Assembly (NCBI RefSeq): GCF_000383855.1
Contig: NZ_KB912877.1
Span: 3,392,282 to 3,456,281 of the forward strand
DNA from: Methylobacter marinus A45
GTDB taxonomy: Bacteria > Pseudomonadota > Gammaproteobacteria > Methylococcales > Methylomonadaceae
DNA length: 64,000 bases
Direction: 5' to 3'
The notes under the pieces: generated by a model
The model's database searches: none
Told to the model about the DNA's origin: nothing
What the model saw: only the letters and a program-made list of their open reading frames with translations
Position numbers and translations under genes: made by a program
Part shown: piece after piece, positions 7,722 to 61,663 of the stretch
Position numbering within the stretch: position 1 is the stretch's first letter
How the letters are laid out: every line of letters starts with the position of its first letter

Positions 7722-8033
7722 ATGATTCCGGGAGAGATTATCGCCGCCGCCGGCGAGTTGGAACTGAACGCGGGCCGCGAGACGATCCGCGTGGTGGTCG
7801 CCAACAGCGGCGACCGGCCGATTCAGGTCGGCTCGCATTATCATTTTTTCGAGACCAATCCCGCCTTGCACTTTGACCGCGCCGCGACGCGCGGCTTCCG
7901 GCTGGATATTCCGGCCGGCACGGCGATGCGCTTTGAACCCGGCCAGCAGCGCGAAGTGCAGCTGGTGGCCTTTGCCGGCTTGCGCCGGGTTTATGGTTTT
8001 CGCCAGGCCGTGATGGGAGAGTTAGATGAGTAG
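7722..8033 (+). CDS. ureB: Urease beta subunit UreB
   Basis: 103 residues, the usual beta-subunit length. The start ATG at 7722 follows GGAGTG with good spacing. Conserved blocks are [45 protein letters not shown] and [10 protein letters not shown]. It is 10 bp downstream of ureA and overlaps ureC by 8 bp, indicating coupled translation. Confidence 0.96.
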
Positions 8034-9729
8034 AATCAGCAGACAGGCTTATGCCGATATGTTCGGGCCGACTACCGGCGACCGCGTGCGCCTGGGCGAC
8101 AGCGGCCTGTTTCTGGAAGTGGAGGAAGACCGCACGGTTTACGGCGATGAAGTCAAATTCGGCGGCGGCAAGGTCATCCGCGACGGCATGGGGCAAAGCC
8201 AGGTTGATGGCACTCAGGCTATGGACCTGGTCATCACCAATGCCTTGATCGTCGATTACTGGGGCATCATCAAGGCTGATGTCGGCATCAAGAACGGCCG
8301 CATCGCTGGCGTCGGCAAGGCCGGCAATCCCGATACGCAACAGGGCGTCGACATCGTCATCGGCCCCGGCACCGAAATCGTCGCCGGGGAAGGCCAGATT
8401 CTGACGGCCGGCGGCATCGACGCGCATATCCATTTCATCTGTCCGCAGCAAATCGACGAAGCCCTGATGTCGGGCATCACCACCATGATCGGCGGCGGCA
8501 CCGGCCCCGCCACGGGCACGAACGCGACGACCTGCACGCCCGGCGCCTGGAATATTCATAATATGCTGCAATCGCTGGATGCGTTTCCCATGAACTTCGG
8601 CCTGCTCGGCAAGGGCAACGCCAGTCTGCCTGCGGCGTTGGAAGAACAGGTGCGCGCCGGAGCCATGGGCCTGAAGCTGCACGAAGACTGGGGCACGACG
8701 CCGGCGGCCATCGATTGCTGCCTGTCCGTGGCCGAGCGCTTTGACGTGCAGGTCGCGATTCACACCGACACCTTGAACGAGTCCGGGTTTGTCGAGGACA
8801 CCTTCGCCGCCTTCAAAGGCCGCGCCATCCATACCTATCACACCGAGGGCGCCGGCGGCGGCCATGCCCCCGATATCATCAAGGCCTGCGGCGAGGCCAA
8901 CGTGCTGCCGTCGTCGACGAATCCGACCCGGCCCTACACGGTCAACACCGTGGACGAGCATCTGGACATGCTGATGGTGTGCCACCATCTGGACCCGGGC
9001 ATCGCCGAGGACGTGGCTTTCGCCGAATCGCGCATTCGCCGCGAGACCATCGCCGCCGAGGATATTCTGCATGACCTGGGGGCCTTCTCGATGATCGCGT
9101 CCGATTCGCAGGCCATGGGCCGGGTCGGCGAGGTCATTATCCGCACCTGGCAGACCGCGCATAAAATGAAGGCGCAGCGCGGCAGCCTGGCGGAGGATTC
9201 GTCCCGCAACGACAATTTCCGCATCAAGCGCTATATCGCCAAATACACGATCAATCCGGCCATCAGCCATGGCATCGCGCATGAAGTCGGGTCCGTCGAA
9301 GTCGGCAAGCTGGCCGATCTGGTGCTGTGGCAGCCGGCCTTTTTCGCGGCCAAGCCCAGCCTGATCATTAAAGGCGGATTCATTGCCGCGGCACCCATGG
9401 GCGATCCCAATGCCTCGATTCCGACGCCGCAGCCGGTGCATTACCGGCCCATGTTCGGCGCCTTCGGCAGGGCCGCCGCGGCCAACTCGATGGTGTTTTT
9501 GCCGAAGGTCGCGGCCGAGGCCGACATGGCCGCGCTGCTGAAGCTGAACAAGCGGATCGGCGTGGTGGCGAACACGCGCACGATCGGCAAGAAAGATTTG
9601 ATTCACAATCATTACCAACCGCATATCGAAGTCGATCCGCAAACCTATTCGGTGCGCGCCGACGGCCTGCTGCTGACTTGCGAGCCGGCCGATGTGCTGC
9701 CTTTTGCCCAACGTTATTTTTTGTTTTGA
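8026..9729 (+). CDS. ureC: Urease alpha (catalytic) subunit UreC
   Basis: 567 residues, the same length as the well-studied Klebsiella subunit, and the active-site residues fall at the same numbers. The nickel ligands are His134 and His136 (DAHIHF), carbamylated Lys217 (GLKLHEDWG), His246, His272 ([15 protein letters not shown]) and Asp360 (ASDSQAMG). The mobile-flap Cys319-His320 (MVCHHLD) is present. The enzyme hydrolyses urea to ammonia and carbamate in the cytoplasm. All catalytic residues are present, so it should be active once metallated by UreDEFG. Confidence 0.98.
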
Positions 9730-17645: not shown

Positions 17646-19271
17646 TCACATCACGCCTTCGAATTCGCGGGCGCGCGGTGAAAGCTCTCGGCTGTTGATG
17701 CGGTGCACAGCTGCCAGCAGGTGCATGACGGCTTTACGATGCGACGCGGTTTCGAGCTCACCGTAGTGATGTTCAACCTGCGCTGTGCGCGGGTTGGTGC
17801 TGACGATGCTGAAGTTCGCAGGTTGCTGTCCGGGTTTTTGTATGGCGTTGCGATGCAGCGTCGTGCCCATGATGACCTGGAGCCGGTTTAGCGATACTCT
17901 TTCGATGACATCGACGTGCCGCTCGAGAAATTCCGCGCTGGCGCGCACATCGGCGGCCGTCTCGCCCGGGTAGCCGAGAATCATCGTGCAGCGGCAGGAG
18001 ATGCCGGCGGCCGAGGCATTATGCAGAAAGGCGCTGATTGCATCGAGCTGCGTTCCTTTTTTCATCAGATCGATGAGGCGCTGGCTTCCGGATTCGAGAC
18101 CGGTGCTCAGCCTGACACAGCCGCTCGCGGCGGCGGCCCGCAGGTCGGATTCCGTGAGTCCGGTATCTGCCTCGCTGCCCATATGCACGGCGGCGATCCA
18201 TTGCGCGCCCGGCACGACGTCCTGCATGCCGGCGATGAGCGAGCGCCACATGTTGACGTTACTGTTAAGTTTCAGGTCAGTGAACACGAATCGGGACGCC
18301 CGATATCGCTGATAATGGCTGGCAAGTTCGTTCAATACGTTTTCGGGACTGCGGCTGCGGTAGGTGCGTCCCGCAGTGCTGGAGACGTCGCTGCAGAAGG
18401 TGCATGCTCCCCAACCGCAGCCACGGCCGGTTATAACCGGAATGATGCGGTTCGGGTAAGCTGACCAGGGGAAGTCGCTGAAATCGGGGTAGGGCACCGC
18501 ATCAAGCGCCTTTTCCGGCGCGGCAATTCTGCCTCTGATCTCGCCTTGCGGACCCATTGTCATCATGCCTTGATGCAAAGTCACATCGCCGCCGGCCAGC
18601 AGCGTTTTCAGTATGGCGGGCAGCCGCAGTTCGACCTCGCCGGCGGCAAGTGCGGACAATCCGGGGATAGCGCTCCAGTCCTTGATGACCTCGGGCTGCG
18701 CGAAATACGGACCGCCGATCACAACCGGAATCCCCTGATCATGACAGATGGCACAGATCCGTTCGCAGACGTTGCGGTACATCAGGTATGTCGAAATCAT
18801 CACGGCTTGTGGACGGGCGCGCTCCAGTTCGGCCTGGAATTCTTTAATCAAGTGTTCCTCATGCGCGGTGACTTCGGACAGCCGGCTAGAGGCGAGCCGA
18901 CTGCGCCATTGCCGGATTTTGGCGCTGCCGGACGTTGCGGCGCGGTGGTTCAATTTGGCAGCCAGCAAGCTGAATCTGTGGGGCCGTGCTTCTCGCGTGA
19001 CACCATGAACGCCAATCATGAGCGGCGCGAACACACTGACGCGCACGTTCGAAGCGCGCAGGATCGAGGCAAGGTAGCCAATGGGCAAAGTCGGGTAACG
19101 GGAGAAATTGTTCAGATCGACGAGCAACACAGTAATTTGATCGTCTGTCAATCCTGCCTTGAGACGTGGGCTGGTATTCGGCAGGATGGATGTTTTTTCA
19201 TAATTTATACGCCGCATTTCAAAGTTGCTTTTCCAGAGGCTTTTCTTTGTTTTCTTTTTGACTTCTTCCAT
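17646..19271 (-). CDS. B12-binding radical SAM protein
   Basis: 541 residues from the ATG at 19271, chosen because AAAGGAA precedes it; the frame continues 42 codons upstream without a ribosome site. The first ~240 residues resemble a cobalamin-binding domain (VLLVDLNNFSRYPTLPIGYLASIL, VVIGGPYFAQPE), though the DxHxxG base-off motif is not obvious. The radical SAM core has Cys285, Cys290 and Cys293 in GCGWGACTFC, a CX4CX2C spacing with one residue more than the textbook CX3CX2C. TGLESGSQRLIDLMKKG and TMILGYPGET are further radical SAM landmarks. The substrate is unknown; the paired glycosyltransferase suggests a sugar, lipid or peptide product. Confidence 0.88.
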   Translation of the reverse strand: MEEVKKKTKKSLWKSNFEMRRINYEKTSILPNTSPRLKAGLTDDQITVLLVDLNNFSRYPTLPIGYLASILRASNVRVSVFAPLMIGVHGVTREARPHRFSLLAAKLNHRAATSGSAKIRQWRSRLASSRLSEVTAHEEHLIKEFQAELERARPQAVMISTYLMYRNVCERICAICHDQGIPVVIGGPYFAQPEVIKDWSAIPGLSALAAGEVELRLPAILKTLLAGGDVTLHQGMMTMGPQGEIRGRIAAPEKALDAVPYPDFSDFPWSAYPNRIIPVITGRGCGWGACTFCSDVSSTAGRTYRSRSPENVLNELASHYQRYRASRFVFTDLKLNSNVNMWRSLIAGMQDVVPGAQWIAAVHMGSEADTGLTESDLRAAAASGCVRLSTGLESGSQRLIDLMKKGTQLDAISAFLHNASAAGISCRCTMILGYPGETAADVRASAEFLERHVDVIERVSLNRLQVIMGTTLHRNAIQKPGQQPANFSIVSTNPRTAQVEHHYGELETASHRKAVMHLLAAVHRINSRELSPRAREFEGVM

Positions 19272-19900
19272 TGCGTGTTCCTTTAAATAACCATAATCAG
19301 CCCACCTAACCGCTTCCGGCCCTCGCAAGTATGAATCCGCATGCCGGCAATGTTTCATAGTCAGGCAAAGCCAGCATATCGAAACGTTACGAGTCATTCT
19401 CCGCAGCCGCGTAGCATGTGTTTTTTGATCTATTGTTAATAAGTATTGCTCCAGTGAGGGTACGTCGATTAGTAGCTTCGCGAAGACATGGATTCTGGGT
19501 TTTGCGGGTTAATGATAGTGTCGTTCCACGGCCTAAGCGTTACGGCAACGCTAATTATTTTTTATATATTGCCCTTTCCGGGTTTACGTACAGGACTGCT
19601 TCCAACACTGGAACTCTGTTGATCCCCAATCTGTGTATCTGAATCCGCTTAAACGGCAATTCGCTGCGCGGGCGGATCGGTCACCACCGAGGATTCACGT
19701 CCGCGGCCAATGACAGTATCGGGAATGCTACCATAGTTGCGGGCAGCTTACATCAGCGCCTTGCGCTTCGGGCCGGTTAAGGGTTTTGTTGTTTTATTAA
19801 GGCTGTGATGTTTAATACAGGCGGAATTCGCAAGAGAAGCAAATACCGTAAGTGGAGTTGAAGCCGTCTATCGCCAGATGCTATTAATCATTGCTGATCA

Positions 19901-20324
19901 ATAGCATCTGTACGGTGTTTAGAGCGTTTATTCATTAGTCGGAAACATTACCTTCAGACATGCGTCGCCATGAAAAACAAGCCATTCACTGACCGATAGG
20001 GCATTTCCTCGTTCCCACGCGGGAGAGACTGTGAAAGTATTCAATTTAAAGGGTTTAACCACGAAGGACACGAACGCCTCCAAGGATGGAGGCGGTAGAA
20101 TTGCGTCTGGAACAGCAATCGAGAGCACGAAGTTTTAAGTATTTGATTAACTTAATTTTTTCTTCGTGTCCTCGGCAACTGCTCCTGCGTTGCTCTACCT
20201 CCTGCATCCCTGCAGTCGTTCGTGATCTTCGTGGTGAATAAGGCTTTTTATGACGTTTTTCACTAATTCTTTCACAGCCTCGGGAGCATGGGAACCAGGG
20301 AAATAGTATCTGTACGGTGTTTAG
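19901..20324. repeat. Direct-repeat pair enclosing the mobile element
   Basis: ATAGCATCTGTACGGTGTTT (plus AG) at 19901-19922 recurs at 20303-20324 with one change. The left copy is itself part of a dyad with CAGATGCTATT near 19876. The pair encloses about 380 bp including the element at 20025-20281, suggesting an older insertion or duplication. Confidence 0.7.
20025..20281. mobile_element. MITE-like element, 257 bp, inserted in a REP palindrome
   Basis: Left end GAGACTGTGAAAGTATTC and right end, inverted, GAGGCTGTGAAAGAATT. GGGA is duplicated at 20021-20024 and 20282-20285. Removing the element and one GGGA restores GTTCCC-acgcgggagcat-GGGAAC, a palindrome. The ends match the element at 5430-5547; both then continue TTTAACCAC. 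The interior carries its own ACCACGAAGGACACGAA and inverted TTCGTGTCCT / CTTCGTGGT segments, so it may be two nested repeats. Confidence 0.75.
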
Positions 20325-20341
20325 CTGTGGCTGATTTCGCC

Positions 20342-22159
20342 TTATATCAAGGTTTTCATATATTCCACCAGTGCCCAGCGTTCTTCATCGGTGTAATCCC
20401 GATAAGTGCCGTCCTCTTTTTTGGTCTGGGTATAGCCAGGGCCGCTATGTCCGGTATTCCAGTTACCTGTTAACGTTGTATCGAATTCAAATCCTTTTTT
20501 GCCATCGGTTTTGTAACCGACCTGCACGGGGTCGAATTCATTCGTCCCGACAAAGAATTTTTTCACGCGTTGATCTTCAGGCAGCAGGAGCTGATACAGA
20601 TTAGGCACTGAGCCATTATGCAAAAACGGCGCTGTCGCCCAGATGCCATTAAGCGGCCGGGCCTTATAAGTTGACACAAGTGATAACGGCGCATCCACCA
20701 GAGGAGGGGTGCGCATTCCGCTCAACCGGAATGCCAATTCCTGCAACTCTTTTTCCGGCAGGCCGGTTTCGGCCAGTTTGCGTTGTATCGCTCCTTTGAC
20801 TGCCGCTTTCAGGATCAATACCCTGGAAACTTCTTCCTGGGCTTGTACTTCCTTAGGCTCCAGATAATTCCTAAGCGCTCCCGGATTGGCTTTGTAGGCA
20901 AGAATATTCTGTATCATCTGCGGGTCGGTACCGATTTCCTGCAATGTCTTGGCGGATACCGTGGTAACGAATTGCTTGCCGAACTGATTTTTTGGCGTCA
21001 TCGGGAAATTGCCGGCCGCATCGCGTATATGGTGGCACTGCACGCAATCCTGGGCATAAAGCTGCTTGCCCATCTCCGCTTTAACCGGATCAATTTTGCC
21101 CAGGTGCTCAGCGGGCCAGGCCGGTGCCTGCAGCTTTTCGACATAGCCTTCCAGGCGGTCGAGGTTCTGAATATTGACTGTCGAGGTAAATTGGCCGGTG
21201 GCCGGAGTACCCGTCAGTTTGAGGTGCGCATAGACGCCCATGACTTCGCCGACATTCCTGGCCAATGGATTGCCCGCGGAGCTATTGTATTGAACCCAGT
21301 CCAGTTGCGGAGTGGTCCATAGAAACGGGTAACTGACCGGCGCGTCGGAAGGGCGCTTATTGCCGGGAATGTCTAAATTGGTCGCGCAGATACGGTTTAA
21401 AATCGCGCCGAACGCATCCAGTCTGCCATGGCCATAAGGCACGCTGCCTTTGTTCAATTTGACAAGGTCGTCTAAAACCTGGGTATAGGCTATCACACGC
21501 TCTTTAAGCGCATCCTGCTCGCCCTGATTCCAGTTGGGATCAAGCACCCTGCGGGCGAAACGGGACATTTTATCGGGATTTGACGTGGTGGCCTTCAGGG
21601 ATTCCACCAGCTGGGTCAGAAAACCTTCATGATCGGCGTGCGAGGAGCCGCCGTCGATACGAATGAGGTGGCCGTTATAATTAATCTGTGACGTGTGGCA
21701 GTTGGAGCAGGTCTGTCCGAGCCAGGTGTCGGTTACGGGATATTTGTCCTGGTTATAAGACGCGCCCAGGAATTCTTTTTTGATATTGAACGAAATGGCG
21801 GCCGGATTCTCGTTTTTGACAAAACCGATGGGCAAGCCGTCAGGATTGAGGTTTTTATCGGCCTTTTGAGGAATATACCCCAGTTTTTTCATGTTTTCAT
21901 CCGAGCGAAACAGCCCGTCATTATCACTTTGCTCCAGAGCGAGAAACCAGTGATAGGGTAATAATTCAGAACCTTGAGATAAATAATAGAAAGCCTGCCG
22001 ATCGTCATCGGTCCAGCCCTGGTCGAGAAAAACCACGTCCGCCTTATTATCAGGTCGATTTATACCGCCATTTTTAAAAGGATGGGTGCCATCGCAACCT
22101 GTGGTTGTGGCCAGCAAGGTTGGAATCAACAGGGTTATAAGTCGACTATTAAATGACAT
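20342..22159 (-). CDS. Exported two-haem cytochrome c (peroxidase/RoxA-like)
   Basis: 605 residues from the ATG at 22159, preceded by GGAG; the frame opens 12 codons earlier without a ribosome site. The N-terminus is a signal peptide with a possible but weak lipobox (ATTTGC). Two c-type haem motifs are present, CSNCH in the first half and CVQCH in the second, as in di-haem peroxidases and MauG-like enzymes. Blocks such as QGWTDDDRQAFYYLSQGSEL and PYHWFLALEQ resemble, from memory, the RoxA/RoxB and surface-cytochrome group found in methanotrophs; this finer placement is inference. It stands alone on the minus strand. Likely periplasmic or surface exposed. Confidence 0.82.
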   Translation of the reverse strand: MSFNSRLITLLIPTLLATTTGCDGTHPFKNGGINRPDNKADVVFLDQGWTDDDRQAFYYLSQGSELLPYHWFLALEQSDNDGLFRSDENMKKLGYIPQKADKNLNPDGLPIGFVKNENPAAISFNIKKEFLGASYNQDKYPVTDTWLGQTCSNCHTSQINYNGHLIRIDGGSSHADHEGFLTQLVESLKATTSNPDKMSRFARRVLDPNWNQGEQDALKERVIAYTQVLDDLVKLNKGSVPYGHGRLDAFGAILNRICATNLDIPGNKRPSDAPVSYPFLWTTPQLDWVQYNSSAGNPLARNVGEVMGVYAHLKLTGTPATGQFTSTVNIQNLDRLEGYVEKLQAPAWPAEHLGKIDPVKAEMGKQLYAQDCVQCHHIRDAAGNFPMTPKNQFGKQFVTTVSAKTLQEIGTDPQMIQNILAYKANPGALRNYLEPKEVQAQEEVSRVLILKAAVKGAIQRKLAETGLPEKELQELAFRLSGMRTPPLVDAPLSLVSTYKARPLNGIWATAPFLHNGSVPNLYQLLLPEDQRVKKFFVGTNEFDPVQVGYKTDGKKGFEFDTTLTGNWNTGHSGPGYTQTKKEDGTYRDYTDEERWALVEYMKTLI

Positions 22160-32777: not shown

Positions 32778-33140
32778 CGAATTTGAATATTGTACTTTAG
32801 TACAATATTCAAATAGAAAAAAACAATTATAATCGCAACTGTGCTGGATTTTTAACGTTCAGGAAGAACAAAGTTAATGAAGTTATACCATTTTATAAGG
32901 GGCGGATTGTAGGGGGTAAAGGGTTTGCTGATTTTTGTGCAAACTTATCAAAAATTCCTTCAGCCTAGGTATTTTGGCTATTTGGTTTTTCCCAAATAAT
33001 ATGAAAGTTCTAAATATTAATGTGGCATAAAGTAGTGTTTCCGGCGTTTTGAAATTAACGGCTGGATGCCATTAATAAATATTAGGAGTGGTGGGTTGTA
33101 TGGTGCGTGACCAACCGGGTGGTTGGCATGTTTCACGGAT
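32778..33140. other. Gap ahead of the riboswitch, no gene
   Basis: Contains a perfect 34-bp palindrome right after the sugar transferase stop, AT-rich sequence, and an ACCAACC-ggg-TGGTTGG dyad at about 33112-33127 just before the riboswitch. The promoter for the riboswitch transcript should lie here. Confidence 0.6.
32781..32814 (+). terminator. Perfect palindrome, probable 3' hairpin of the sugar transferase mRNA
   Basis: ATTTGAATATTGTACT-tt-AGTACAATATTCAAAT, 16-base perfect arms, three bases after the stop codon. It lacks a T-run, so it may be an mRNA-stabilising hairpin or a protein site, not a classical terminator. Confidence 0.45.
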
Positions 33141-33227
33141 GATTAAGGCCAAACCTGTTGTGAAGCAGGGGCGGAAAACCGCGAGTCTTGAGAAATGGTT
33201 TTATCAAGATAGTCGGGTTGCAAATTA
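33141..33227 (+). promoter_or_regulatory. Probable cyclic di-GMP-I (GEMM) riboswitch
   Basis: The segment reads GGCCAAACC, a stem with GTGA tetraloop (CTGTT-GTGA-AGCAG), GGGGCGGAAAACCGCGAG, TCTTGA-loop-TCAAGA, then TAGTCGGGTTGC. This follows the GEMM-I layout: AAACC, GNRA-capped stem, G-rich joint with AAA, second hairpin, AGATAGcCGGGTTGC close. Some core positions differ from the consensus (GGCCAAACC for GGCAAACC; GGAAAACC for GCAAAGCC). A CAAATTAT...ATAATTTG hairpin follows at 33221-33244 and could be the expression platform before the start codon at 33260. It would place the sorted surface protein under cyclic di-GMP control. Confidence 0.7.
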
Positions 33228-33259
33228 TGATAATTTATAATTTGTTGCAGGTTTTTGTC

Positions 33260-33784
33260 ATGAAAAAAATTTTTTTTAGTTTTGTATTATTGTCCGTACT
33301 TTCTTTTGGTGCAAACGCGGCTACTTTAACACTAACAGAAGCAGATCCCGATTTGACTGATCAGGCTAATATGGCGGTTAATTTTGGTGGCACCGGTCAA
33401 TTGGTTTCCGGTTCTGGCCAAATTTCGGGCTCGGTCGATCATATTTGGGGTATTGAATCTAATCCAGGAGCTTCATACGTTTCGTCTTTCTCAATTACAA
33501 CGCCACAAAGCACTGCATTTATAGATGGGGTTAATCTTTATGCGGACAGTTCTTTAACTACATTACTAGTAGCGGCGACTCAGGTTGGTCCTGAGTGGAA
33601 ATTTAGTTATTTGTTGGCAGCAAATACTCAGTATTTCATAAATGTACTAGCTCATGGAACTGGTAGCTATACTCTTAATGTTCAAACACCAATTCCAGCT
33701 GCCGTTTGGTTATTCGGCTCAGCTTTGATGGGATTGGTCGGCTTTTCACGTCGTAAAGGCAATTCAGCACAATCTGTTGCATAA
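33260..33784 (+). CDS. VPLPA/PEP-CTERM sorted surface protein
   Basis: 174 residues from the ATG at 33260 (MKKIFFSFVLLSVLSFGANA signal peptide). The mature part is Ser/Thr/Gly-rich with no enzymatic motif. The C-terminus is a sorting signal: TPIPAAVWLFGSALMGLVGF followed by SRRKGN, that is a VPLPA-type motif, a membrane helix and a basic stop. Such proteins are cut and anchored or released by an exosortase; the likely one is at 60113. The frame opens earlier (33188) but inside the riboswitch. It ends 24 bp before a strong terminator, so it is its own transcription unit. Confidence 0.9.
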   Translation: MKKIFFSFVLLSVLSFGANAATLTLTEADPDLTDQANMAVNFGGTGQLVSGSGQISGSVDHIWGIESNPGASYVSSFSITTPQSTAFIDGVNLYADSSLTTLLVAATQVGPEWKFSYLLAANTQYFINVLAHGTGSYTLNVQTPIPAAVWLFGSALMGLVGFSRRKGNSAQSVA

Positions 33785-33808: not shown

Positions 33809-33832
33809 AAAGGGGCGTTCTGCCCCTTTTTT
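33809..33832 (+). terminator. Rho-independent terminator
   Basis: AAAGGGGC-gttct-GCCCC followed by six T. Ends the VPLPA-CTERM gene transcript. Confidence 0.9.
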
Positions 33833-33860
33833 AATTTTTATAAAACAGAAATAAAAAATT

Positions 33861-60112: not shown

Positions 60113-61663
60113 ATGAATAAGAATCCAGTCCTCTGGAAATTCGATTATCGATATCTGGCGTTAATCAGCTTTGGTTTGTTGCTGTTGTTATTTGCGTTTG
60201 CCGGCGGGTTGCAGGAATTGGTTGTCCGGTGGGACAAGCAGGAAGAATACAGTCATGGCTATATTCTTCCGTTTATCACGCTGTACTTTATCTGGCAGCG
60301 GAAGAACCTTATTCAACGGTCTGGCTTTTCACCTTCCTGGATGGGGTTCGGCATTGTTTTTTTGGCGCTGATTGTATTTCTGGTGGGCGAGATCAGCGCG
60401 CTTTATATATTGATTCATTACGCCTTTATTGCGGTATTGATGGGCATTGCCTTGGCGATTATGGGATGGCCCGCGGTCAAGCCGGTTATCGTGCCGATTC
60501 TGCTGCTGATTTTTACTATTCCGTTGCCCTATTTTCTTGAAGCCAGCCTTTCCGCCAATTTGCAGCTGTTATCGTCCAAAATGGGCGTGTACTTTATTCG
60601 CTGGTGCCAAATTCCTGTTTATCTGGAAGGCAATATTATTGACCTGGGCAGTTACAAATTGCAGGTGGTGGAAGCATGCAGCGGCTTGCGTTATCTTTTT
60701 CCGCTGATGAGCCTGGGGTTTATTTGCGCCTATCTGTACGACACGACATTCTGGAAACGTGCGCTGGTCGTTTTATCGACGATTCCGATCACCTTGTTCA
60801 TGAACAGTTTCCGTATAGCCATGATTGGCGTGCTGGTGGATAACTGGGGTAATGCCATGGCGGAAGGCTTTCTGCATGATTTTGAAGGCTGGGTCGTTTT
60901 CATGGCTTGTCTGGGGATTTTAATAGTGGAAATGCTTGTGTTGGCCAGGATTGGCGAAGACAGGCGGCCTTTTGCCGAAATCTTCGGGTTGACTGCCGAT
61001 CAGCCTGCCAGCGCTGCGGCCGAGGTAAAAATCAGACCGCTATCGCTTCCTTTTTCCGCCATCGTTGCCGTTCTGGCGGTGGCTACCGTGACGGTGTTTT
61101 CTATCGATAAACGCGATGAGGTCTTCCCCGAGCGCAAAAATTTCCCATTGTTTCCGATGCAGTTGTCGTCCTGGCAGGGCCGGCATGCCAGCATGGAAGA
61201 CAGGGTGATCAACAAGCTGGGCCTGTCGGACTATATTCTGGCCGATTTCAAGCAGGATCAGGGCGCGCCGGTGAATTTATACGCGGCTTATTACGCTTCC
61301 CAGAGAAAAGGCATTTCTCCGCATTCGCCGCGCGTTTGTATTCCGGGCGGCGGCTGGCAGATTGCTGATATTGAGCGGAAAGATCTGGGCCATCTGGCGG
61401 TGAACCGGATTGTGATCAAGAAAGGCGAAATGACACAACTGGTTTATTACTGGTTTCAACAAAGAGGGCGGTCATTGGCGAATGAGTATCTAATGAAATG
61501 GTACTTGTTTAAAGATGCGCTATTGTTAAATAGAACCGACGGGGCGCTGGTACGCCTGACTACGATGGTTAATCCCGGTGAAAATCTCGATCTTGCCGAT
61601 CAGCGCCTGCAGGTTTTTGCCAAAGAAGTTTTGCCGGTTCTGCCGCAATATATTCCTGAGTAA
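60113..61663 (+). CDS. Exosortase with C-terminal EpsI domain (XrtD-like)
   Basis: 516 residues. The N-terminal ~290 residues are an eight-helix exosortase with the catalytic triad Cys189 (VEACSGLRYL), Arg234 (MNSFRIAMIGV) and His255 (FLHDFEGWVVF). The C-terminal ~210 residues are an EpsI domain (FPMQLSSWQGR ... SPRVCIPGGGWQI ... YYWFQQRGR). The fused form and the VPLPA-type tail of the protein at 33260 point to the VPLPA-CTERM-specific exosortase class (XrtD); this placement is from memory. It should cleave sorting signals in the inner membrane. 31 bp after the GT26-STAS gene, 24 bp before the TPR gene. Confidence 0.9.
   Translation: MNKNPVLWKFDYRYLALISFGLLLLLFAFAGGLQELVVRWDKQEEYSHGYILPFITLYFIWQRKNLIQRSGFSPSWMGFGIVFLALIVFLVGEISALYILIHYAFIAVLMGIALAIMGWPAVKPVIVPILLLIFTIPLPYFLEASLSANLQLLSSKMGVYFIRWCQIPVYLEGNIIDLGSYKLQVVEACSGLRYLFPLMSLGFICAYLYDTTFWKRALVVLSTIPITLFMNSFRIAMIGVLVDNWGNAMAEGFLHDFEGWVVFMACLGILIVEMLVLARIGEDRRPFAEIFGLTADQPASAAAEVKIRPLSLPFSAIVAVLAVATVTVFSIDKRDEVFPERKNFPLFPMQLSSWQGRHASMEDRVINKLGLSDYILADFKQDQGAPVNLYAAYYASQRKGISPHSPRVCIPGGGWQIADIERKDLGHLAVNRIVIKKGEMTQLVYYWFQQRGRSLANEYLMKWYLFKDALLLNRTDGALVRLTTMVNPGENLDLADQRLQVFAKEVLPVLPQYIPE

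Follow-up and report, generated by a model that had tools for sequence, protein, structure and literature searches.

The leader of a gene for a 174-aa secreted-looking protein in Methylobacter marinus A45 is a c-di-GMP-I riboswitch by covariance, with every appearance of a genuine one; binding of c-di-GMP and regulation by it are predicted from its sequence. The gene lies in the 64,000-nt stretch of DNA that we analysed, hereafter the window. We think it reasonably probable that this class I riboswitch lies in the 5' leader of an mRNA with one gene, that of an exosortase substrate, and that it acts as a translational ON switch. The aptamer match, the order of the genes, their conservation and the repeated association of riboswitch and sorting tail are observed directly; ligand binding, the ON direction, the translational level and sorting by the exosortase XrtD are what we infer from the analyses below. 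The features concerned are collected in Table 1.

Table 1. Features of the riboswitch gene and its locus (window coordinates)
Feature	Position	Strand	Basis or remark
Inverted repeat GTGA-CCAACC-GGGT-GGTTGG-C, just upstream of aptamer	33107..33127	+	candidate operator or 5' leader hairpin
c-di-GMP-I riboswitch aptamer (P1, P2 with GTGA loop, P3)	33138..33225	+	RF01051 covariance match
P1 5' strand ATGATT	33139..33144	+	sequence and enforced fold; partner AATTAT, 33223-33228
AAGGCC, ligand-pocket strand	33145..33150	+	predicted to pair with GGTTTT, 33250-33255, in the unconstrained minimum-energy fold
AT-rich hairpin CAAATTAT/ATAATTTG	33221..33244	+	folding; holds C92 equivalent and P1 3' strand
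Probable Shine-Dalgarno GCAGG, 8 nt before ATG	33247..33251	+	sequence
174-aa secreted-looking protein with VPLPA-CTERM-like sorting tail	33260..33784	+	weak relative of flocculation protein PepA
Terminator-like hairpin and T-rich tail	33809..33838	+	hairpin 33809-33829, then TTTAATTTTT
Exosortase XrtD, VPLPA-specific	60113..61663	+	TIGR04152, 577.7 bits (cut-off 400)

The leader holds a class I c-di-GMP aptamer

In a search of the whole window on both strands, the RF01051 model (c-di-GMP-I, GEMM-I) matched the leader over its entire length (model positions 1-87 of 87) with 59.5 bits, against a gathering score of 35, and an E-value of 4.2e-9. The covariance search proposed in an earlier, sequence-only reading of this DNA is clearly positive, and the GEMM-I layout which that reading had recognised is borne out, with the landmarks AAACC, a GTGA-capped P2, GGAAAA and GATAGTCGGGTTGC all present. 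The P2 tetraloop GTGA (33160-33163) is of the GNRA type. Under RF03167 (c-di-GMP-I-GGC) the same aptamer scored 55.1 bits, below the gathering score of 59, and membership of that variant was rejected on this score.

The sequence-only reading had also reported changes at several normally conserved core positions, which holds in part. Non-standard pairs do exist, two in number and confined to P1 in the alignment to RF03167, the one alignment examined; shifted by one register, P1 forms six pairs including one G-U. The changes, however, mostly preserve pairing: the closing pairs of P2 are C-G and C-G where the consensus has G-C and C-G, and the equivalents of positions G20, A47 and C92 are retained.

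The inverted repeat just upstream of the aptamer was considered as a common upstream operator and rejected. It has one copy in the genome with up to two mismatches allowed, and it stands upstream of 2 of 151 aptamers, namely the one in the window and that of the Methylobacter luteus ortholog, where it is kept with an altered loop. Thus, the repeat is not the mark of a regulon.

The downstream gene and its locus

The start codon lies 34 nt past the aptamer match. The encoded protein ends in TPIPAAVWLFGSALMGLVGFSRRKG plus nine residues, an arrangement of motif, hydrophobic stretch and basic end. Its score under TIGR03370 was 17.7 bits (20.4 bits in the genome search), below the cut-off of 25.35, and under the Pfam PEP-CTERM model 13.9 against a cut-off of 20.7. 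NF033554 (floc_PepA) gave an E-value of 2.4e-8 and 34.1 bits, where the cut-off is 80, in a match that takes in the tail. Since the tail falls below the curated cut-offs, the VPLPA-CTERM assignment is made by motif and context and not by score.

The proposal that this is a single sorted protein with a terminator of its own stands in outline: the VPLPA-CTERM-like tail is there, as is a hairpin followed by TTTAATTTTT, but the tail is sub-threshold and the terminator scan returned two overlapping versions of the hairpin against 1.1 expected from shuffles, a count not beyond chance. In view of this terminator-like hairpin, control by the riboswitch probably stops at this gene, without reaching the polysaccharide genes from 33861 onward. 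A search for sigma-70-like promoters between 32780 and 33900 found none on the + strand; its three sites were all on the - strand.

The same locus encodes XrtD, which is the probable sorting enzyme of the VPLPA tail. Neighbouring matches include an undecaprenyl-phosphate glucose phosphotransferase, an export protein, a chain-length determinant and a tyrosine autokinase, some of them below curated cut-offs. The idea that c-di-GMP sensing is coupled to an exosortase substrate inside a polysaccharide locus is upheld by the covariance match, by the VPLPA-CTERM-like tail, by the presence of XrtD and by a second case in the genome. Indeed, RF01051 has two matches in the whole genome, each ahead of a VPLPA-type gene, at distances of 33 and 34 nt; the second riboswitch stands 33 nt before a protein with the tail PVPAAVWLFGSGLLGLIGAARKK. 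The VPLPA model yielded 15 matches at E <= 1 (10 at E < 0.01, five over the cut-off), and with two riboswitches in the genome only a minority of VPLPA-type genes bear one. The genome also has 26 GGDEF matches, from which c-di-GMP signalling is expected.

Elsewhere in the window, RF02514 (5_ureB_sRNA) matched at 8175-8461 on the - strand with 142.6 bits, antisense within a frame at 8026-9729 (+) that, by eye, we take to be a urease alpha subunit. Because it runs antisense inside this urease-like frame, the match may only mirror conserved coding sequence.

The gene has an ortholog in one of three other genomes of the genus, that of Methylobacter luteus (89% protein identity), and the leader of the ortholog matches RF01051 with 51.7 bits. 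The expression platform from GATAGTCGGG to CAGGTTTTT is identical letter for letter in the two species. The P3 loop differs, and one outer P3 pair is changed on both sides, from A-T to G-C. Four more distant relatives of the protein matched beyond the tail: L177, L178 and L180 over nearly the full length at 33-34% identity and L215 over residues 60-169 at 36% (L numbers denote loci). RF01051 matches lie just upstream of L177, L178 and L215, and no match at the gathering score was found upstream of L180. Of the relatives' loci, 20 of 43 were scanned for RF01051, and 12 of the 20 had a match somewhere.

Riboswitch and VPLPA-type gene recur across the family

An RF01051 match was present in 103 of the 201 genomes of the family. 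The counts that follow were taken from the 150 matches listed, the total being greater than 150, and as first gene we counted, among the frames with a start no more than 300 nt from the aptamer, the longest. The listed matches gave 86 complete first frames, 60 frames that ran off the fetched stretch and four aptamers with no frame. A VPLPA-type tail was found in 60 of the 86 complete first genes, from 36 genomes. Among the matches listed, the tail depended on the distance from aptamer to start: 43 of 45 genes had it below 60 nt, 14 of 21 at 60-120 nt and 3 of 20 beyond 120 nt. As background, the tail pattern occurred in 1 of 359 frames of the window, perhaps the gene at 33260-33784 itself, and in 1 of 693 opposite-strand frames.

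The best-scoring family aptamers (above about 67 bits) showed no VPLPA tail in the fetched part of the next gene, where many frames run off the fetched stretch. Aptamers at about 73-80 bits (L003, L009, L048-L052; L004, L012, L018, L020) precede other proteins, either short with QQFSWGEC-like tails or long and beginning with MNSNSRRSQKNQ or alike. The best-scoring aptamers are perhaps a second set of c-di-GMP targets.

Two arrangements were observed besides. On contig C100 of genome G026 (about 18268-21158), four modules of riboswitch and VPLPA gene (L087, L091, L118, L164) follow within some 3 kb, each with an aptamer of its own. In G074, a genome from the genus of the window, two class I aptamers in tandem lie upstream of one VPLPA-type gene (L145, 126-209 and 301-382).

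In the class as a whole, 67 of 369 genomes had a match, two of the 67 belonging to the family. Outside the family, 69 loci gave 47 complete first frames (15 from 29 loci and 32 from 40), and the tail was present in 6 of the 47. The best-scoring 29 loci, with the tail in none of 15 complete first genes, are a score-biased sample, as the best-scoring aptamers within the family lack the tail too, and we therefore added 40 lower-scoring loci, where it was present in 6 of 32. Two of these six are near copies (L279, L280); PEP-like tails (L277, L278, L284) and a near miss (L269) were left out of the six. With 60 of 86 against 6 of 47, the pairing of riboswitch and VPLPA-type gene is recurrent in the class and, in the samples taken, dominant only in the family. 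That it recurs in the family suggests that surface proteins of the biofilm are under common control.

A proposed expression platform that would expose the ribosome site

The AT hairpin that had been noticed ahead of the start codon is present: CAAATTAT (33221-33228) can pair with ATAATTTG (33237-33244). As it takes up the C92 equivalent and the 3' strand of P1, this hairpin excludes the closed aptamer. The pocket strand AAGGCC, by its predicted pairing with GGTTTT, would cover the GG of the Shine-Dalgarno sequence; this pairing was seen only in the window gene and, by conserved letters, in its ortholog. An anti-Shine-Dalgarno pairing of AAACCTG (33151-33157) with CAGGTTT (33248-33254) is possible, but was rejected as 4 kcal/mol worse (-43.0 vs -47.0).

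We propose that, when c-di-GMP is scarce, the AT hairpin would draw in the C92 equivalent and the P1 3' strand at the aptamer's 3' end; AAGGCC, thereby freed, would pair with the Shine-Dalgarno stretch GGTTTT, keeping translation low. With c-di-GMP bound, P1, P2 and P3 would close, the AT hairpin and the Shine-Dalgarno pairing would be lost, and the protein would be made. It would then be exported and very probably processed by the XrtD of the same locus. A high biofilm signal would thereby coincide with display of the 174-aa protein.

We modelled the cost of opening positions -14 to +3 with four lengths of coding sequence. In the window it was 8.4, 7.9, 6.2 and 3.9 kcal/mol when the leader folded freely and 3.8, 3.6, 4.8 and 4.6 kcal/mol when the aptamer was enforced; in the ortholog the values were 7.7, 7.2, 6.0 and 5.0 kcal/mol free and 3.0, 3.0, 3.9 and 3.9 kcal/mol enforced. 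Seven of the eight model folds thus favour ON (three of four for the window and four of four for the ortholog), the longest window fold pointing in the opposite direction (3.9 free vs 4.6 bound). When folding is computed without a ligand term, the closed-off state comes out 11 to 16 kcal/mol more stable; switching would therefore need co-transcriptional capture or very tight binding.

We extended the folding to 44 close-coupled leaders, the 43 found in the family together with that of the ortholog, which are related and of which 23 are left once similar ones are removed. Between the aptamer and the start codon, the predicted folds are more stable than those of shuffled sequences (mean z -1.59; z < -1 in 28 of 44), the segment beginning with the 3' end of the aptamer. 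Two kinds of leader can be told apart, a CACC kind and the AT-hairpin kind of the window, with class borders that shift slightly between analyses (31 + 13 or 30 + 14 leaders). In the CACC kind, the 3' strand of P1 continues into CCTTATGT, whose pairing partner is ACATAAGG at the Shine-Dalgarno sequence. Arms of 8 nt were found in 12 of the 14 leaders, one of which (L127) pairs badly, the remaining two being L101 and L150; local folding gave a hairpin in L101 and none in L150. One position of the helix is T-A in eight leaders, T-G in two, C-G in one and mismatched in one (n = 12).

In the CACC kind, the helix that covers the Shine-Dalgarno sequence overlaps the P1 3' strand, and closure by the ligand would be expected to uncover the ribosome site. 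The modelled change in opening cost there averaged -3.8 kcal/mol, where shuffled strands gave -1.3; relative to the shuffled control of each leader, 10 of 14 (4 of 6 after removal of similar ones) fell in the lowest tenth. As a group, the window's kind shows no clear direction: the change was -1.1 against -0.5, with 8 of 30 in the lowest tenth, and without similar leaders (n = 17) the mean was -0.2 against -0.3, with the lowest tenth holding 2 of 17. Nor is the window's own leader distinct from its control in this local test (-0.2 vs a control mean of -0.9). With two kinds of leader, and an ON effect clear against controls only in the CACC kind, we rejected a single switching rule for all relatives. 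The models favour the ON direction through an exposed ribosome site, which stands out from controls only in the CACC kind and which for the window rests on seven of eight folds.

Several leaders of the window's kind lean OFF, and the same c-di-GMP riboswitch might work in that direction: a closed P1 would free the 3' arm of the AT hairpin, and this arm or the coding start would cover the ribosome site. In six of the 30 leaders (L024, L087, L096, L105, L145, L164) binding raised the modelled opening cost by 0.1 to 3.4 kcal/mol, and all six top their own control (fraction at least 0.97). The longest window fold leans this way as well, and Vc2 is described as a translational OFF switch (PMC9262584). 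Against this, seven of eight full-leader folds of the window and its ortholog, as well as the sister CACC group, favour ON, and the logic of a biofilm would favour production at high c-di-GMP. We regard an OFF switch as rather unlikely.

The aptamer could also act at another level, on transcription or RNA stability instead of translation initiation. Aptamer and gene are separated by a short, AT-rich spacer, and effects of Rho or of RNase access would leave no mark for analyses of sequence or folding. The terminator scan, however, found no terminator-like site between the aptamer and the start of the window gene, which makes translation the likelier level of control, and the hairpin ends beside the Shine-Dalgarno sequence in the window (11 nt from the ATG) and in many of the 44 leaders. 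Action on transcription or stability therefore seems improbable to us.

Ligand contacts are kept in the window and vary among relatives

We took positions G20, A47 and C92 to be the ligand contacts of the class I aptamer and numbered all aptamers in the manner of Vc2, by alignment to a Vc2 sequence. In the window their equivalents are 33148, 33175 and 33221, all with the letter kept, and these readings agree with the alignment to RF03167. The A at position 20 by which cGAMP riboswitches (GEMM-Ib) are recognised is a G (33148) in the window. A changed ligand, which the sequence-only reading had entertained, is thus unsupported for the window aptamer.

Among 151 aptamers, A47 is conserved in 151, G20 in 147 and C92 in 139. 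In keeping with this, G20 and C92 are described as less conserved than A47 (PMC9049102). The natural variation of relatives, with T at position 92 in 12 and A at position 20 in four, leaves some room for an altered ligand such as 3',3'-cGAMP in the window as well; yet the change tied to cGAMP binding is G20A (PMC6274999, PMC7288161), and with all three contacts retained we consider such a ligand very improbable for the window aptamer.

The variants are of interest in themselves. All 12 aptamers with T (U) at position 92 keep A47; besides L072 they comprise 11 close-coupled, VPLPA-linked leaders with G20 (L081, L086, L100, L107, L109, L111, L124, L128, L136, L150, L152). These 11, out of 44 close-coupled leaders, come from 10 genomes, and 10 of them are of the CACC/CACA kind. 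The four aptamers with A at position 20 are L099, L141, L143 and L010, the alignment of L010 being less sure. The Rfam structural alignment upholds the A20 reading in three of the four (L099, L141, L143) and also backs T92 in L081 and L109. Among engineered RNAs, G20A binds cGAMP and G20A/C92U binds c-di-AMP (PMC6274999, PMC7288161, PMC9049102). It is possible, judging from sequence, that a natural U92 changes the ligand or the affinity. The C92U leaders would offer an evolved, not merely engineered, test of the rule of ligand choice in this riboswitch class.

A wider reading, which we put forward as speculative and rather doubtful, is that in gammaproteobacterial methanotrophs GEMM-I serves as the standard controller of VPLPA substrates with one aptamer per gene, some aptamers having drifted at the ligand contacts so that surface proteins answer to different levels or different cyclic dinucleotides.

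Relation to known systems

The arrangement described here would tie the main biofilm signal via RNA, gene by gene, to exosortase-placed surface or matrix proteins across a methane-consuming family. Should the switch prove to be ON, production of the polysaccharide could be matched to that of its partner proteins with no regulatory protein involved. In the open-licence literature, covered mostly at listing level, we found no description of how far the pairing extends in the family, of the two expression platforms or of the variants in the pocket. The terms 'c-di-GMP riboswitch' and 'exosortase' were not found together in that literature, and VPLPA-CTERM and riboswitch were found together only in a 2025 paper on Methylophaga nitratireducenticrescens GP59 (PMC12530212).

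Through that paper, the pairing of riboswitch and VPLPA gene had already been noted for one organism. Four of seven predicted c-di-GMP riboswitches of GP59 (numbers 4-7) flank VPLPA- or PEP-CTERM genes (PMC12530212, Table 4), and 10 of 11 riboswitch transcripts were higher in biofilm, riboswitch 5 being the exception (PMC12530212). As in the window, the riboswitches stand at VPLPA/PEP-CTERM genes close to polysaccharide genes. Unlike our analysis, the GP59 entries concern another genus and report transcript levels, the available part of the paper giving them without aptamer anatomy, expression platform or family survey (PMC12530212).

Among class I aptamers, the window's is nearly as good a match to the c-di-GMP-I-GGC type as to its own, but stays below the score of that type. 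Two aptamers of the same genus pass it, L105 with 61.2 bits and the second aptamer of L112 with 59.4 bits. The GGC variant reportedly may go back to a 2017 NAR paper.

GbpA is secreted but, in contrast to the window protein, is not known to bear an exosortase tail. Vc1, upstream of gbpA, resembles our case as a class I aptamer before a surface-attachment protein for which positive regulation by c-di-GMP is reported, and differs from it in its long 5' UTR of 225-244 nt (PMC4744006). With Vc2 the window shares the aptamer fold and the identity of the three presumed ligand-contact positions. Unlike the window, where ON is favoured, Vc2 is described as a translational OFF switch whose key element is P1 (PMC9262584).
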